64,000 nucleotides of DNA from positions 1 through 64,000 of the forward strand of contig NZ_PDNU01000028.1 of assembly GCF_002631185.1 (NCBI RefSeq), written 5' to 3'. Shown piece after piece: positions 26,499 through 54,024 of the stretch (its first letter is position 1; every line of letters begins with the position of its first letter). The notes below the pieces were generated by a model that saw nothing but the letters and a program-made list of their open reading frames with translations, was not told the origin of the DNA and searched no databases. This DNA comes from Teichococcus rhizosphaerae. GTDB lineage: Bacteria > Pseudomonadota > Alphaproteobacteria > Acetobacterales > Acetobacteraceae. Both the position numbers and the translations under genes were made by a program.

Positions 26499-28019
26499 AT
26501 GGACGCCTTCGGCCACCTGGCGGGCGGCTTCGCCGTCGCCCTCGCGCCGCTCAACCTGCTGCTGGCGCTGTGCGGCAGCGTCGCCGGCACCGCCATCGGC
26601 GCATTGCCCGGGCTCGGGCCGCTCAACGCCATCGCGCTGCTGCTGCCGCTGGTCTTCGCGCTGAAGCTGCCGCCCGAGAGCGCGCTGATCCTGCTCGCCG
26701 CCGTCTATTACGGCTCGGGCTATGGCGGGCGCATCGCCGCCATCCTGCTCAACATGCCGGGCGAGCCCGCCGCCGTGCTCACCACGCTCGATGGCCACCC
26801 CATGGCCAGGGCCGGGCGCGGCGGCGCGGCGCTGGCCATCTCCGGCATCGGCTCCTTCGCCGGCGCCACCCTCTCGGTGGTGCTGCTGACCTTCCTGTCC
26901 GTGCCGCTGTCGCGCGCCGCGGTGGGCTTCTCGCCGGCCGACTACGTGGCGCTGATCGGCTTCGCCCTGTCCCTGCTGGGCGCCGTGGCGGCGGGCAACG
27001 CCGCCAAGACCTGGGCGGCCGCCTGCCTCGGCCTGCTGCTGGCCATGGTGGGCATCGATGGCGGCACGGGCGTCGAGCGCTTCACCTTCGGCACGGTGGA
27101 GCTGCTGGGCGGCATCGACTTCACCGTGCTCGCCATCGGCCTGTTCGCGGTGAGCGAGATCCTGCTGCTGCTGGAAAGCCCGGTGGCGGCGGCCGCCAGC
27201 CACCTCGGCCACGGCGCGCGCCTGACATTGGCGGAAATCCGCCGCTGCGTGCCGACCATGCTGCGCTCCACCGGCATCGGCTTCGTCATCGGCGTGCTGC
27301 CGGGGGCGGGCGCCTCCATCGCCGCCGCCCTGTCCTATTCCACCGAGAAGCGGCTGAACGAGAGGGACGGCACCTTCGGCCGCGGCGACGTGCGCGGCGT
27401 GGCGGCGCCCGAGACGGCCGACAACGCGGCGCAGATCGGCAACATGGTGCCGATGCTGGCGCTGGGCATCCCGGGCTCCGGCACCACCGCCGTGCTGCTG
27501 GGCGCGCTGCTGATGTACAACATCACCCCCGGCCCGCTGCTGTTCACCCAGCGGCCGGAAGTGGCCTGGGGGCTGATCGCCAGCATGTATGTCGGCAACG
27601 TCATGCTGCTGGTGCTGAACCTGCCGCTGGTCGGGCTGTTCGCGCGGCTGCTGATGGTGCCGGCCTGGGCGCTCTACCCGCTGGTCATCGCGCTGTCCTT
27701 CGCAGGCGTCTACGCCGCCTCCAACTCCAGCACCGACCTGCTGCTGGCGGTGGGCTTCGGCGTCGCCGGCTGGATGTTCCGCAAGCTGGGCGTGCCGCTG
27801 GTGCCAATCGTGCTCGGCTTCGTGCTGGGGCGGCTGCTGGAGGACAATCTGCGCCGCGCCCTCTCGCTCAGCGACGGCGACCCGATGATCCTGCTGGCCT
27901 CGCCGGTGTCCGTGGTGCTGTGGGCGCTGACCTTGACGGCGATCCTCTGGCCGGTGATCGGCCTGTGGAAGGCCAGGGGCGCCGCCCCTGGAGCCCCGCC
28001 GGGGTGCCCGCCGGGGTGA
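26499..28019 (+). CDS. tripartite tricarboxylate transporter large permease TctA
   Basis: A 506-residue TctA permease with about 11-12 helices. The family signature GTAIGALPGLGPLNAIALLLPL is near residue 30, the YYGSGYGGRIAAILLNMPGEP segment near 70, and the repeated-half signature VLPGAGASIAAALSY and PETADNAAQ in the middle. The last residues (GAAPGAPPGCPPG) are encoded by the first part of a two-hairpin palindromic element, so this tail is probably not part of the ancestral protein. Its stop is 22 bases from the end of the convergent cobD. Confidence 0.92.
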   Translation: MDAFGHLAGGFAVALAPLNLLLALCGSVAGTAIGALPGLGPLNAIALLLPLVFALKLPPESALILLAAVYYGSGYGGRIAAILLNMPGEPAAVLTTLDGHPMARAGRGGAALAISGIGSFAGATLSVVLLTFLSVPLSRAAVGFSPADYVALIGFALSLLGAVAAGNAAKTWAAACLGLLLAMVGIDGGTGVERFTFGTVELLGGIDFTVLAIGLFAVSEILLLLESPVAAAASHLGHGARLTLAEIRRCVPTMLRSTGIGFVIGVLPGAGASIAAALSYSTEKRLNERDGTFGRGDVRGVAAPETADNAAQIGNMVPMLALGIPGSGTTAVLLGALLMYNITPGPLLFTQRPEVAWGLIASMYVGNVMLLVLNLPLVGLFARLLMVPAWALYPLVIALSFAGVYAASNSSTDLLLAVGFGVAGWMFRKLGVPLVPIVLGFVLGRLLEDNLRRALSLSDGDPMILLASPVSVVLWALTLTAILWPVIGLWKARGAAPGAPPGCPPG

Positions 28020-28045
28020 CAATGTCACCCCGACCCCGCCATCAG
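27973..28045. repeat. two-hairpin palindromic element, copy 1
   Basis: Hairpin 1 is CCAGGGGC-GCC-GCCCCTGG (27973-27991). Hairpin 2 is GGGGTGACA-A-TGTCACCCC (28013-28031). They are separated by 21 bases that include a small CCCCGCCGGGG palindrome, and followed by the flank GACCCCGCCATCAG. Hairpin 1 is inside the tctA coding region and the flank overlaps the cobD stop. It shares hairpin design and flank with copies at 45473 and 50804. It could also act as a bidirectional terminator between tctA and cobD. Confidence 0.85.
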
Positions 28046-45446: not shown

Positions 45447-45469
<23 letters not shown>

Positions 45470-46730
45470 GCCCCGGGAGGGCGCCGCCCTCCCGGACCCT
45501 CCCGCCGGGGTGACAGTGTCACCCCGGACCCCGCCATCGGTCAGGGGGTGGTGCCCGCATCTCTTCGCGCCGATGGAAACGGGGGACGGGCTGCTGCTGC
45601 GCGTCAAGCCCTTCGGCAACCGCATCACGGCGGCCCAGGCGCGGCTGCTGGCGGAGATCGCGCCCGGCCCGGTGGAGCTGACCAACCGCGGCAACCTGCA
45701 ACTGCGCGGCGTGACGCAGCCGGACGCCCTGGCCACGCCCATCGTGGCGGCGAGCCTCGCCGATCCCGATCCGGGGCGGGAAGGCCGCCGCAACATCATC
45801 GCCTCCCCGCTCATGGGCGACGACCCGAGCCTTTCCCCCGCCCTGCCCGGATGGCACGCGGCGCTCTCCGCGATCCTCGCCGGATCCGGCCCGCTGCCCG
45901 GCAAGTTCGGCGCCGTGCTGGATGGCGGCGGCGTGCTGCCGCTGGCGGGGGTGGAGTCCGACATCACCCTGCGCCTCGCCCCGGATGGCGGGGCCGTGCT
46001 CCACCTCCCCGGCCTGCCCCTGCCCGGCGTGACACCCGCCGCCCTGGCCCGGTTGACAGAAAATTTCCGCGCCACCGGCGGCCGCCGTCTGCGTGAGGCG
46101 CTGCGCCTCCACGGCGCCGGGGCCCTCCTCGCCGGCACCGGCCTCGCCGGCCTTCCCGCCGCGCCCGAGGCAGCGCCCTCGCCCGCCCCCGTGGGCTTCC
46201 ACCCCTATCCCGGCATGGCGCGCGGCGCCTTCGGCCTCGCCCCTCCGTTCGGTCAGATGAATGCCGCCGCCCTCCGCGCCCTGGCGGAACTCTCAAAGGA
46301 ATTCGGCGACGGCACGCTGCGGCTGACGCCCTGGCGCGCCATCCTGCTGGCGGGCGTCACGCGCCCCGCCGCGCTGCGCGCCGCCGCCCAGGGCTGGATC
46401 ACCGAGCCCGCCGACCCGCGCCTGCGCATCGTCGCCTGCCCCGGCAGCGCGGGCTGCGCCAGCGGCCAGGCCGACACCCGCGCCGATGCCCTGGCGCTGC
46501 TGGCGCGCGGCGCGGTGCCAGAGCGGGGCTTGCTGCATCTCTCCGGCTGCGCCAAAGGCTGCGCGCATCCCGGCGCGGCGGCGGCGGTGCTGGTGGCGGC
46601 GCCGGATGGCTACGCCCTGCTGCGCCACGCCCGCGCCGGAGACACGCCGCGGCGCACCGGGCTCACCCTGGCCGAAGCGGCGGCCGAGCTGGAAAGCGCC
46701 GGGGCGGCGGCCGAACGGGACACGGAATGA
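45447..46730 (+). CDS. cobG: precorrin-3B synthase
   Basis: A 427-residue CobG, the oxygen-dependent enzyme that hydroxylates and lactonises precorrin-3A before ring contraction. Nitrite/sulfite-reductase-like halves and the Fe-S cysteines are visible (ACPGSAGC with Cys-x5-Cys, and SGCAKGC with Cys-x3-Cys). The conserved start of the fold is [20 protein letters not shown]. The ATG at 45447 overlaps cobN by 23 bases; the next 25 codons or so run through a two-hairpin palindromic element. GTG codons inside the element are alternative starts, so the N-terminus is repeat-derived in any case. Confidence 0.9.
45473..45540. repeat. two-hairpin palindromic element, copy 2
   Basis: Hairpin 1 CCGGGAGGGC-GCC-GCCCTCCCGG (45473-45495), a 9-base linker ACCCTCCCG, hairpin 2 CCGGGGTGACA-G-TGTCACCCCGG (45505-45527), then the flank ACCCCGCCATCGG. 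It lies just after the cobN stop and is read in frame as the CobG N-terminus ([20 protein letters not shown]). Confidence 0.9.
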
Positions 46731-49596: not shown

Positions 49597-51228
49597 ATGA
49601 ACAGCACACCCTGGCTTTCCATCATCGGGCTGGGCGAGGACGGCGTCGAGGGACTGCCCGCCGCGGCGCGGGCGCTGCTGGAAGGGGCGGAGGCGGTGTT
49701 CGGCGGACAGCGCCACCTGGCGCTGGCGGCGGGGCATATCCGCGGCTCCGCCCATCCCTGGCCCAGCCCGATGCTGGCCGGGCTGCCCACCCTGCTGGCG
49801 CGGCGCGGCCGGCCGACGGCGGTGCTCGCCTCGGGCGATCCCTTCTGCTTCGGCATCGGCGCCACGCTGGCGCGGCACGTTCCGCCGGAGGAGTTCCTGT
49901 GCCTGCCCGCCCCTTCGGCCTTCGCGCTGGCCTGCGCCCGGCTGGGCTGGGCGATGCAGGACTGCGCCACCCTGTCCTTCTGCGGCCGGCCGCTGGAGCG
50001 GCTGGTGCCGCTGCTGCAGCCGGGCGCGCGCATCCTGGCGCTCTCGGCCGATGCGGAGACGCCCGCGCAGGTGGCGGCGCTGCTGCGCGGCCTCGGCCTC
50101 GGCCCGACGCGGATGGCGGTGCTGGAAGCGATGGGCGGCCCGCGCGAGCGCCGCCACGACACCACCGCCGCCGGCTTCGCCCACGCGCCGGACCCGCTGA
50201 ACATGCTGGCGCTGGAGGTGGTGCCCGGCCCCGGCGCGCGGGTGCTGCCGCTGGCGCCCGGCCTGCCGGAGGATGCCTTCGAGCAGGACGGGCAGATCAC
50301 CAAGCGCGAGGTGCGGGCGGTGACGCTGGCCATGCTGGCGCCGCGCCAGGGCGAGCTGCTGTGGGACATCGGCTGCGGCAGCGGCTCGGTGGCCATCGAG
50401 TGGATGCTGCGGCACCCGGCCAACCGCGCCATCGGGCTGGAGCCCCGGCCCGAGCGGGCGGCGCAGGCGGCGCGCAACGCGCTGGCGCTGGGCGTGCCCG
50501 GGCTGCGCCTGGTTCGGCAGGCCGCGCCAGACGGTCTCGCCGGCCTGCCCGCGCCGGACGCCGTGTTCGTGGGCGGCGGCGGCGCCCGGCCCGGCGTGCT
50601 GGAGGCGGCCTGGGAGGCGCTGCGCCCCGGTGGCCGCCTGGTGGCCAATGCCGTGACGCTGGAAACCGAGGCCGTGCTCTACGCCGCCCAGGACCGCTGG
50701 GGTGGCGCGTTGGCGCGCCTCGGCGTGGAGCGCCTGGACCGTGTCGGCGCCATGCGCGCCTTCCGCCCCGCCATGACCGTGACGCAATACGCGGCTGAGA
50801 AACCGATGGCGGGGTCTGGGGAGACACTGTCTCCCCAGCGGTGGGGTCCAGGGGAGGCAGCGCCTCCCCTGGCCGTGGCGGGGTTAGGCGCCCGCCCCGG
50901 CGTTTCTGCTTCTGCTGTGGTCGCCCTGGTCCGCGAGGCCGAGCAGCGCTCCGGCCTGCGCGTCGGCGCCCTGGCCGCCCCCTGGTTCCGCCGCGACGTG
51001 GCCGCGCTGACCGAGGCCGCCGCCACGCTCGGCCTGCCGCTGCACTGGGTGGAGGAGGAGGCGCTGAGCGCCGCGCAGCCCCGCTGCCCCACCCCATCCG
51101 AGACTGCGCGCCGCGCCACCGGCTACGCCGCCATCGCCGAGGGCTGCGCCCTGGCCCTGGGCGGGCGGCTGGCGCTGCCGCGCATCGCCGGGGAGGGCGT
51201 GACCTGCGCGCTCTCGGTGGAGGAATAG
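49597..51228 (+). CDS. cobL: CobL-CobE fusion: precorrin-6Y C5,15-methyltransferase plus CobE/CbiG C-terminal domain
   Basis: A 543-residue fusion. Residues 1-400 are CobL: the CbiE-like N-terminal methyltransferase ([33 protein letters not shown]) and the CbiT-like decarboxylating domain ([32 protein letters not shown]). Residues 428-543 are a CobE/CbiG C-terminal domain ([19 protein letters not shown], then [25 protein letters not shown]). The join, residues about 404-431, is encoded by an inverted two-hairpin palindromic element, giving [24 protein letters not shown] at 50875 could start CobE separately. No stop interrupts the frame. Both activities belong to the same pathway. Confidence 0.88.
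50804..50887. repeat. two-hairpin palindromic element, copy 3 (inverted, inside coding region)
   Basis: On the plus strand: flank GATGGCGGGGT, hairpin 2 CTGGGGAGACA-C-TGTCTCCCCAG (50816-50838), a 9-base linker CGGTGGGGT, hairpin 1 CCAGGGGAGGC-AGC-GCCTCCCCTGG (50848-50872). It is the reverse orientation of the copy at 45473, with the same order and linker length and with compensated base-pair differences. It is read through in frame as the CobL-CobE linker. Confidence 0.9.
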
Positions 51229-51235
51229 GAACGCG

Positions 51236-51997
51236 ATGACCGTGCATTTCATCGGCGCCGGCCCCGGCGCGCCGGACCTGATCACGCTGCGGGGCCGGGA
51301 CCTGCTGGCTGCCTGCCCGGTCTGCCTTTACGCCGGCTCCATCGTGCCGCCGGCGCTGCTGGCGCATTGCCCGCCCGGCGCCCGGCTGGTGGACACGGCG
51401 CCGCTCGACCTCGACGCCATCGAGGCCGAGCTCCTCCGCGCCCACCGGGCGGGGCAGGACGTGGCGCGGCTGCATTCGGGCGACCTGTCCGTGTGGTCGG
51501 CCATGGCGGAGCAGGTGCGGCGGCTGGAGAAGCACGGCATCCCCTACACGGTCACGCCCGGCGTGCCGGCCTTCGCCGCCGCGGCCGCCGCCCTGGGGCG
51601 GGAGCTGACGGTGCCGGAGCTGGCGCAGAGCGTGGTGCTGACGCGCATCTCCGGCCGCGCCTCCGCCATGCCCCCGCGCGAGACGCTGGAAGCCTTCGGC
51701 GCCACGGGCGCCACGCTGGCGCTGCACCTGGCGATCCACGCGCTGGGCCGGATCGTCGAGACGCTGACCCCGCTCTACGGCGCGGACTGCCCGGTGGCCG
51801 TCGTGGTGCGCGCCTCCTGGCCGGATGAGCGGGTGGTGCGCGGCAGGCTGGGCGACATCGTGGCGCGGATGGCGGAGGCCCCGGCCGAGCGCACGGCGCT
51901 GATCCTGGTGGGGCCGGCCCTGGCGCCGGAGGGCTTCCGCGAGAGCGCGCTCTACAGCACGGACTACCAGCGCCGCTTCCGCGGGCGGGGCGAGTAG
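51236..51997 (+). CDS. cobM: precorrin-4 C11-methyltransferase
   Basis: A 253-residue CobM/CbiF methyltransferase making precorrin-5. The start [58 protein letters not shown] and [23 protein letters not shown] are highly typical. It starts 7 bases after the cobL-cobE stop with GGAACGCG upstream. It is the last plus-strand cob gene, followed by palindromes and the convergent cbiD. Confidence 0.95.
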
Positions 51998-52000
51998 CCG

Positions 52001-52080
52001 GAGCATTCTCCGTTCGCCCATGCTCACCGCGAATGCTCTGGCTCATGGTTTGTGCGGGCATCTTCACCCGATCGGGTGAA
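52001..52080. terminator. palindromic region between cobM and cbiD
   Basis: Two inverted repeats lie between these convergent genes: GAGCATTC (52001-52008) with GAATGCTC (52031-52038), and the perfect 18-base palindrome TTCACCCGATCGGGTGAA (52063-52080). Neither has a T-tract. The second could be a terminator stem or a protein-binding dyad. Confidence 0.5.
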
Positions 52081-52101
52081 CCCGCCTGACCGGGATTTGC
52101 T

Positions 52102-53223
52102 CTACCCAGGCGCCACGCTTTCCGCCAGCAGCGCGCCGTCCCGCCCGAACAGGGCGACATCCACGCGGATGGGGCCGCCCTCCACCACGCGCTGCGCGAC
52201 CAGGCGCGCCCGCTCCGCCACCGCCGCCGGCAGGGCGATGCTCTCCTCCCGCGCCAGGGTGAAGGCTTCCAGCGCCGTGTTGGCGGCGGCGATGCGGGCC
52301 GCCAGCGCCTCGCTGCCGCCCCCCTCGTGCGCCAGGGCGGCGAGCGCCGGCAGGTCCACCGCGCCGCGGCGGGAATGCAGGTCCAGCCGCCCCTGGGCCA
52401 GCTTGGTCAGCTTGGCCAGGCCCCCCGCGATTGTGACGCGCGGCACCGGGTGCGCCCGCAGGTATTTCAGCATGCCGCCGACGAAGTCGCCCATGTCGAT
52501 CAGCGCCTGCTCGGGCAGGGCATGGTGGCGGCGGACGGCCTCCTCGCTGGTGCTGCCGGTGGCGCCGGCCACATGGGCGAGGCCCGCCGCCCGCGCCACG
52601 TCGATGCCGCGATGGATGGAGTGGATCCAGGCCGCGCAGGAATAGGGCACCACGATGCCGGTGGTGCCCAGCACGGACAGCCCGCCCAGGATGCCGAGGC
52701 GCGGGTTCATGGTCCGCTCCGCCAGCGCCGCGCCGCCGGGGATGGAGATTTCCACCAGCGCATCGGCCTCGGCGCCGGCCACCTCCGCCAGGGCGGCGCG
52801 GATCATGGCGCGCGGCATGGGGTTGATGGCGGGCTCGCCGGGCGGCAGGGGCAGGCCGGGCAGCGTGACGGTGCCCACCCCTTCCCCGGCGGCGAAGACC
52901 ACGCCGGAGCCGGGCGGCAGCCGATGCACCGTGGCGCGGATCAGGGCGCCATGCGTCACGTCCGGATCGTCGCCGGCATCCTTCACCACGGCGGCCATGG
53001 CGCCGCCATCCGGCAGCAGGGCGTGCTCGGCCAGGGCGAAGGCCGGGCGCTCGCCGCGCGGCAGGGTGATGGCCACCGGGTCGGGGAAGGCGCCGGTGCG
53101 CAGCGCGGCGAAGGCGGCCTTGGCCGCCGCCGTGGCGCAGGCGCCGGTGGTCCAGCCCCGGCGCAGCGGAAGGTTGTCGGGCTGCACGCGCCTAGCTGTA
53201 TCGCCGGCGCCCGTTCCTGTCAT
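52102..53223 (-). CDS. cbiD: cobalt-precorrin-5B C1-methyltransferase CbiD
   Basis: A 373-residue CbiD. The family start LRRGWTTGACATAAAKAAFAAL, VKDAGDDPDVTHGA, GVGTVTLPGLPLPPGEPAINP and GTTGIVVPYSCAAW are hallmarks. It methylates C1 of the precorrin-5 ring. In Pseudomonas-type aerobic synthesis this step is done by CobF, which is not seen here, so CbiD probably replaces it. The ATG at 53223 has AGGGGG upstream; a start nine codons earlier has none. It is the last gene of the cobB-cobT-cobS-cbiD operon. Confidence 0.95.
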   Translation of the reverse strand: MTGTGAGDTARRVQPDNLPLRRGWTTGACATAAAKAAFAALRTGAFPDPVAITLPRGERPAFALAEHALLPDGGAMAAVVKDAGDDPDVTHGALIRATVHRLPPGSGVVFAAGEGVGTVTLPGLPLPPGEPAINPMPRAMIRAALAEVAGAEADALVEISIPGGAALAERTMNPRLGILGGLSVLGTTGIVVPYSCAAWIHSIHRGIDVARAAGLAHVAGATGSTSEEAVRRHHALPEQALIDMGDFVGGMLKYLRAHPVPRVTIAGGLAKLTKLAQGRLDLHSRRGAVDLPALAALAHEGGGSEALAARIAAANTALEAFTLAREESIALPAAVAERARLVAQRVVEGGPIRVDVALFGRDGALLAESVAPG

Positions 53224-53271: not shown

Positions 53272-54024
53272 TCAGCGGCCCAGAAGCAGCGCCGTGAGCG
53301 CCGCGCACTCGGCGAGGACGGCGCAGCCCCCCAGCACGTCGCCCGTATGCCCGCCGACCTGCCGCCTCGCCAGCAGGGCGACGCCCAGCCCCGCCAGCAC
53401 CGCCGCGAGGAGGGCGGAAAGCGCCCCACCCGGCGGCAGCAGCAGGAAGGCCAGCGCTGCGCCCACGGCCAGCCCCGGCGCCACGCCCGCGCGGCCAAGC
53501 CCGGCCGCCAGCCCATCGGCGCGGGCGGGCGGCAGCAGGCCGAGCGGCACCAGCAGCGCGGCGCGGGACAGCGCTCCGGCGGCCGCCATCATGAGCAGGG
53601 GCGAGGGCAGCAGCGCCAGCGCCGTGCCGCGCAGGAACAGGGAGAGCAGCAGCGCCAGGGCGCCGAAGCTGCCGATGCGGCTGTCGCGCATGATGGCCAG
53701 CTTGCGCGCGCGGTCGCGGCCGCCGCCGAAGCCGTCGGCCATGTCGGCCAGGCCGTCCTCGTGCAGGGCGCCGGTCAGCAGCAGCAGGGCGGCCAGCGAC
53801 CAGGGCGCGGCCAGGGCGGGCGGCAGGCCAAGCCCCACCAGCAGCGCCTGCGCCCCGCCCGCGACGCCGCCCGCCAGCGCGCCCACCAGCGGATAGGCCC
53901 AGGCGGCGCGGGCGAAGCCCGCGGCATCGGCCGGCATGGGCCAGCGCCCCAGCGGCAGGCGCGTCAGCAGGCCCAGCGCGGCGCCAAGCTCGCGCCCGCG
54001 CGCCGCCAGCCAGCCGCCGGTCAT
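53272..54024 (-). CDS. cobS: adenosylcobinamide-GDP ribazoletransferase (CobV)
   Basis: A 250-residue membrane protein of the CobS (cobalamin synthase) family. [53 protein letters not shown] with its metal-binding acidic cluster, and about six helices are seen. It joins adenosylcobinamide-GDP with alpha-ribazole (phosphate) in the last steps of the pathway. The ATG overlaps the cobT stop (ATGA). This is CobV in Pseudomonas naming and is not the chelatase subunit CobS. Confidence 0.94.

Follow-up and report, generated by a model that had tools for sequence, protein, structure and literature searches.

The locus described here raises the question of how two adjacent genes of the B12 pathway, cobL and cobE, came to be read as one frame in Teichococcus rhizosphaerae, and what part a palindromic repeat lying between them has had in this. 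It is located in a stretch of 64,000 nucleotides (contig NZ_PDNU01000028.1, positions 1 to 64,000), here called the window. A preliminary description of this DNA had proposed that the fusion was created by insertion of an intergenic element with loss of the cobL stop. Comparison with relatives does not support this as it was stated. We consider it probable that cobL and cobE fused once, in the ancestor of the clade, that the linker is a permissive spot of which the element is a tenant, and that the hairpins rather than the peptide have been maintained in it. Within one genus, the two adjacent pathway genes occur separately, fused, and fused with the repeat between them, a natural series in which it can be tested whether dispersed repeats trigger gene fusions or settle in tolerant linkers.

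The fused frame and its distribution among relatives

The cobL frame, which had been described as passing without a stop through a two-hairpin element into a CobE/CbiG C-terminal domain, was confirmed at 49597-51228 on the forward strand (Table 1), and in its 543-residue product CbiE (residues 9-203), CbiT (233-354) and CbiG_C (427-539) were recognized with Pfam and NCBIfam. CobL is the CbiE-CbiT fusion of the aerobic B12 pathway; both domains occur here in one chain and score above the cut-off (TIGR02467, 150.9 bits; TIGR02469, 109.3 bits), but the protein differs from CobL in having a third domain, CobE, at the C-terminus. The CobE part resembles other CobE/CbiG_C proteins in that PF01890 is matched over nearly the whole length (77.2 bits against a cut-off of 27; E 1.9e-21 for the whole protein) and in that it matches by sequence the solved CobE structures 2w6k and 2w6l, whereas it is unlike them in not being a separate frame, the ancestral start position not being a start codon. 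Compared with its counterpart in Pseudoroseomonas aestuarii, the CobE part has a dN of 0.071 and a dS of 0.391. Against farther relatives dN/dS is high (0.32/0.40, 0.36/0.46 and 0.40/0.58, where dS may be underestimated), so that the constraint on CobE looks weak there.

Table 1. Features of the cobL-cobE locus and copies of the double-hairpin element in the window
Feature	Position	Strand	Remarks
Fused cobL-cobE open reading frame	49597..51228	+	543 aa; ATG 49597 to TAG 51228; 11 further species share the fusion
CobL part (CbiE + CbiT), residues 1-403	49597..50805	+	TIGR02467 at 9-203, TIGR02469 at 233-354
Linker, residues 404-427, coded by the double-hairpin element	50806..50877	+	covariance-model match 50806-50876, 95.8 bits
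Hairpin 1	50816..50838	+	10 bp stem, 3 nt loop; paired in 79/80 cells, 8 coding copies
Hairpin 2	50848..50872	+	11 bp stem, 3 nt loop; paired in 55/55 cells, 5 full-length coding copies
GTG proposed as internal CobE start (codon 427)	50875..50877	+	not a conserved start
CobE (CbiG C-terminal) part, residues 428-543	50878..51225	+	PF01890 at 427-539; PDB CobE 2w6k/2w6l
cobM, gene after the fused frame	51236..51997	+	TIGR01465, E 5.1e-92
Second copy of the element, read in frame close to the start of cobG	45468..45537	-	
Third copy of the element	27969..28042	-	

When the whole protein was searched against the window's own genome and those of 97 relatives, 98 in all, 47 matched. The 16 other genomes of the same genus divide into nine with the fusion, six with separate genes and one incomplete genome without a match (G015, 71% complete), which is counted among the congeners and is in none of the trees. 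Together with the window genome (G000) this gives ten fused genomes, namely G000, G016 (P. aestuarii), G012, G003, G005, G014, G009, G010, G008 (KE0001) and G011; in G011 the cobL-cobE junction lies on one contig. Among named genomes (the best 80 of 126 relatives) nine were fused, 68 had a cobL stop and three were cut off before the stop, and P. vastitatis and P. oryzae, added from this set, bring the total to 12 fused species, each with one open frame and conserved domains on both sides. Within the family, 170 of 397 genomes had a match, and among the matches listed no frame spanning both domains without a stop was found outside the genus. That CobL and CobE are separate in other bacteria, as had been said, holds for the loci seen outside this clade. 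Among the open-access papers listed, none dealt with a CobL-CobE fusion.

Read as a pattern, a start codon overlaps the cobL stop (NTGA) in 66 of the 68 separate loci, and in congeners, P. wenyumeiae for example, this overlap is plainly the beginning of cobE. Such stop-start overlaps often accompany translational coupling. If the state before the fusion was a cobL stop and a cobE start overlapping by four bases, as in many relatives, one CobL-CobE polypeptide would have replaced two products that were probably translationally coupled before. Such a single polypeptide would be the likely product of the fused frames, and one would expect to find it in the cell. A second CobE-like match was absent from the ten fused genomes (E up to 0.001); the extra matches in G012 and G003 are element peptides corresponding to residues 403-433.

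Could the frame be the product of an assembly or sequencing error, or an open frame arising by chance in GC-rich DNA? Long spurious frames are common in the window, but 12 species, taken from separate records, share the fusion, and the domains flanking the junction are conserved in them. As a control for chance, 24 long frames (at least 80 residues on each side) were found over other copies of the element, and a single one, with CobG on one side only, had a Pfam domain. Error or chance is so improbable that it can practically be neglected. Likewise, because the frame is open in 12 species, it is very unlikely that a sequencing frameshift hides the true cobL stop, which the preliminary description had named as a way in which the fusion could be spurious.

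The linker, its element and the repeat family

The double-hairpin element does code for the linker, as had been described, but over residues 404-427 (24 residues) and not 404-431. Linkers are 8, 9, 16, 21, 23 or 24 residues long, and the frame is kept in all 12 fused species. Eight of them carry the element (G000, G012, G003, G005, G014, G009, G010 and G011). The remaining four have short, unrelated linkers: 16 residues in P. aestuarii, nine in KE0001, and eight each in P. vastitatis and P. oryzae. The comparison of this junction in relatives had been suggested beforehand, with the same fusion joined by an unrelated linker in the absence of the element as the outcome that would speak against a causal insertion, and this is what was found, the sister species P. 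aestuarii included. Because relatives free of the element have the same fusion, the repeat is not needed for it, and the element may not have caused it.

The preliminary description had also considered that the GTG at 50875 could allow CobE to be made separately. This GTG and the ATG at 50806 are both in frame, and either might serve as an internal start. Codon 427, however, corresponds in the alignment to residue three of unfused CobE (MIVAGLG) and not to its start codon, and across the 12 fused genes it reads GTG in three, ACG in five, ACC in two and CTG in two, while an ATG at the first linker codon is present in two of the 12. The purine-rich stretch upstream of the GTG sits inside hairpin 2. 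Moreover, all 12 linkers, in six lengths, are in frame, which separate translation would not need. Separate synthesis of CobE from an internal start is therefore improbable, and from GTG 50875 it is unlikely in view of the 3/12 count.

The two-hairpin element at the junction was confirmed, and the window contains two further copies. When the window was shuffled 100 times, the stem-1 pattern, with up to three mismatches allowed, never turned up, and the RNA folding z-score is -3.1, with two of 200 shuffles folding as well. With a covariance model the linker copy was the highest-scoring match of the genome (95.8 bits, E 4.6e-16). Seven copies, this one included, had gone into the model, and five of the 12 aligned copies (window 27969, L005, L007, L008 and L063) were left out. 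At E up to 0.01 the window genome has eight matches to the family (two of which are the linker copy, matched on either strand), P. aestuarii 17, KE0001 one, and the eleven other genomes searched 40 to at least 150 each. These are matches and not distinct copies, some being the reverse strand of the same palindrome, and since 150 candidates were scored per genome the counts are lower bounds at least for G005, where all 150 candidates matched. The linker element thus belongs to a dispersed repeat family. Nothing in Rfam matched 50000-52500 at E up to 1, and the open-access papers listed included none on this repeat in Roseomonas.

Of 37 copies sampled (30 from G014 and seven from the window genome), 24 are stop-free in all six frames, and none is so in fewer than four. 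With many copies free of stops, the repeat can be tolerated in frame. The sampled copies, CobG apart, do not lie in recognisable proteins.

Within the coding linkers the stems have been kept. In the eight orthologous coding copies, 79 of 80 stem-1 cells are paired, with ten two-sided changes and no one-sided change that kept the pairing; for both stems in the five full-length copies (leaving out G003, G014 and G009), 104 of 105 cells are paired, with 11 double changes and one one-sided. In stem 1 the double changes always link a second codon position to a third, so that the peptide varies (Q/R, E/G/V, T/I) while the stem is kept. In none of 500 shuffles, for the stem-1 count with eight copies or the two-stem count with five, was the observed percentage paired, the number of double-changed cells or the covariation score reached. 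Shuffles did reach the number of pairs with a double change, in 123/500 and 8/500 cases, respectively, and the number of pair types, in 491/500 and 472/500. As the two sides of a stem have changed together and remained paired, whereas the peptide varies, it is the hairpin, and not the peptide, that is kept. The locus is thereby a case of hairpin structure retained within a coding linker while amino acids change. As the sequences are few and related, the comparison shows that pairing is kept and not why.

Only within the pairs G014-G009 and G010-G011 is the linker copy of one genome closest to that of the other, whereas those of G000, G012, G003 and G005 are nearest to non-orthologous copies; this comparison covered 62 copies, few per genome except G014, with locus L215 (contig end) dropped. 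Because a linker copy does not always have an orthologue as its closest relative, recurrent insertion or conversion accounts for the paired stems as well as selection on RNA structure would, and the copies do not point to a single insertion of the element. The hairpins may accordingly be maintained by homogenisation of the repeat, by re-insertion, or by a role in the mRNA. It could also be that the repeat created a three-domain B12 enzyme by replacing the overlap codons, and that the linker has since been selected as folded mRNA or DNA with paired substitutions altering the amino acids; we judge this combination unlikely.

A probable single origin, and the order of fusion and insertion

In our preferred reading, cobL and cobE would have become one reading frame in the ancestor of one Pseudoroseomonas/Roseomonas clade, and the linker would be a permissive spot, taken in eight of the 12 species by the often stop-free double-hairpin repeat. 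The fusion most likely arose once. In a tree of the cob-locus proteins the 12 fused species form one clade (99/97). In this tree R. acroporae was represented by the wrong paralogue of CobJ (28.8% identity), and the fused clade has support of 99/99 when the doubtful CobJ is removed and 98/97 when the species is removed. In the cob DNA trees, from which R. acroporae was dropped, the fused species are split from the six unfused congeners at 100/100, the tree being rooted on those six. Housekeeping DNA (RpoB, RpoC and DnaE) places all ten fused genomes in one clade with an SH-aLRT of 99. By RpoB protein alone they are not one clade (two changes, and one change in 2% of the bootstrap trees); in G014, RpoB lies in two frames, of which the longer piece alone was used in the RpoB and housekeeping trees. 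The position of KE0001 (G008) speaks against a simple single origin: the housekeeping proteins place it outside all 15 other genus members in the tree (SH-aLRT 96), as does the combined DNA tree (support 86). Should this placement be right, there were two separate fusion events, a transfer of the fused gene, or a loss of the fusion in the unfused clade.

Did the element enter before or after the fusion? P. aestuarii is the sister of the window species (100/100 in the cob protein tree), and the eight element bearers without it were rejected as a clade (p-AU 1.6e-42). Since P. aestuarii is grouped with the element bearers, the simplest reading is that in its lineage the element is probably gone and the fusion kept; the linker would then house the element without requiring it. 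The rest of the branch order leaves the two sequences of events undistinguished, with a slight lean towards the fusion coming first.

That the fusion came first has close to an even chance in our estimation. A short indel at the overlap would have given a linker of eight or nine residues, into which the element entered later, once or more. The short linkers of KE0001, P. oryzae and P. vastitatis are in keeping with this, as is the cob protein tree, in which KE0001 and P. oryzae + P. vastitatis fall outside a group of nine species made up of the element bearers and P. aestuarii (82/89; 86/86 without the R. acroporae CobJ, below 80 without that species). On this topology a single gain and a single loss following the fusion are needed, in place of three losses. 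The basal position of KE0001 in the housekeeping protein tree, the affinity of the four linker copies for non-orthologous ones, and the presence of other palindromic repeats between cobL and cobE in the unfused G006, G007 and G004 point the same way. Nevertheless, the supports are modest, and the AU test neither rejects the nine-species group nor establishes it (p 0.28 and 0.30 for the codon trees, 0.44 and 0.27 for housekeeping genes). The combined DNA tree, in addition, sets P. oryzae + P. vastitatis beside the element-bearing G003/G012, with a support of 94.

Alternatively, the element may have been inserted first, into the stop-start overlap, removing both codons and setting the register, and have been lost later in three lineages. 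We hold this to be a credible possibility, if one with less than even chances. It would explain that the element has the same place, orientation and frame in eight of the 12 fused species; the insert supplies the needed frame shift and removes stop and start, and the many copies open in all six frames are compatible with such an event. The element-free KE0001 has one match to the whole family, and the end of the P. aestuarii linker (PLAVAGLG) resembles the end of the window linker. Against an earlier insertion stand the four fused species, in three lineages, that are without the element, and the topology of the cob protein tree, subject to the supports given above.

Precedents and other occupied loci

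Rickettsia palindromic elements (RPEs), which a review describes as inserted in frame in many genes (PMC10969869), appear to be the closest precedent. By the account in that review, the likeness is that of a dispersed palindromic repeat which is translated as part of a metabolic gene that is otherwise intact (PMC10969869). The window element differs in lying between two fused enzymes, a position with a domain on each side that none of its other sampled copies has, and in its size: it measures about 70 bp and has two hairpins, whereas RPEs are given as about 150 bp (PMC10969869). In-frame palindromic repeats, best known from Rickettsia, would thus be extended to another alphaproteobacterial family. 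An in-frame insertion with intact, element-free homologues, as in RPEs, is found both at the cobL-cobE linker and in cobG. There, the P. aestuarii frame reads MSDPAPPSVKGWCP, whereas the window frame has TSEP, then 19 element-derived codons replacing one, then PPSVRGWCP. The ATG start of the sister species is ACG in the window, and an in-frame ATG lies upstream at 45447 (region 45447-45560), from which a longer CobG N-terminus is a candidate.

The family is also like REPs and REPINs, being composed of short GC-rich palindromes in many dispersed copies per genome (although the window genome has only eight matches) with head-to-head pairs, of which G014 has at least 15, a few to about 20 bases apart. 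Such copies are seen, for example, on G014 contig C4 at 3018647-3018785. It differs from them in that a search for the Y1 (RAYT-type) transposase PF01797 left 13 of the 14 genomes, the window's own included, without a match, with one weak partial match in G005, and in that the window element is inside a coding frame; this copy is intragenic, and the 24 long frames over other copies are without domains on both sides.

In the unfused G006, G007 and G004, other palindromic repeats (GGGGGAATTC type) lie between cobL and cobE (L014 2706-2960, L015 2695-2865 and L061), so the junction has been repeatedly occupied. By eye, several different palindromes directly follow the cobL stop in L105, from a proteobacterial bin, starting at about 4195; a cobM-like start comes after them, with no cobE seen between. 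In G012 and G003 a copy of the element is seen in an open frame just upstream of what by eye resembles a transporter permease (L062 1428-1497 and L063 1505-1574), and its peptide resembles the linker. In the window itself, a long minus-strand frame ending at 54021, cobT-like by eye, has a short C-terminal tandem repeat of eight residues (EEGVAERA).
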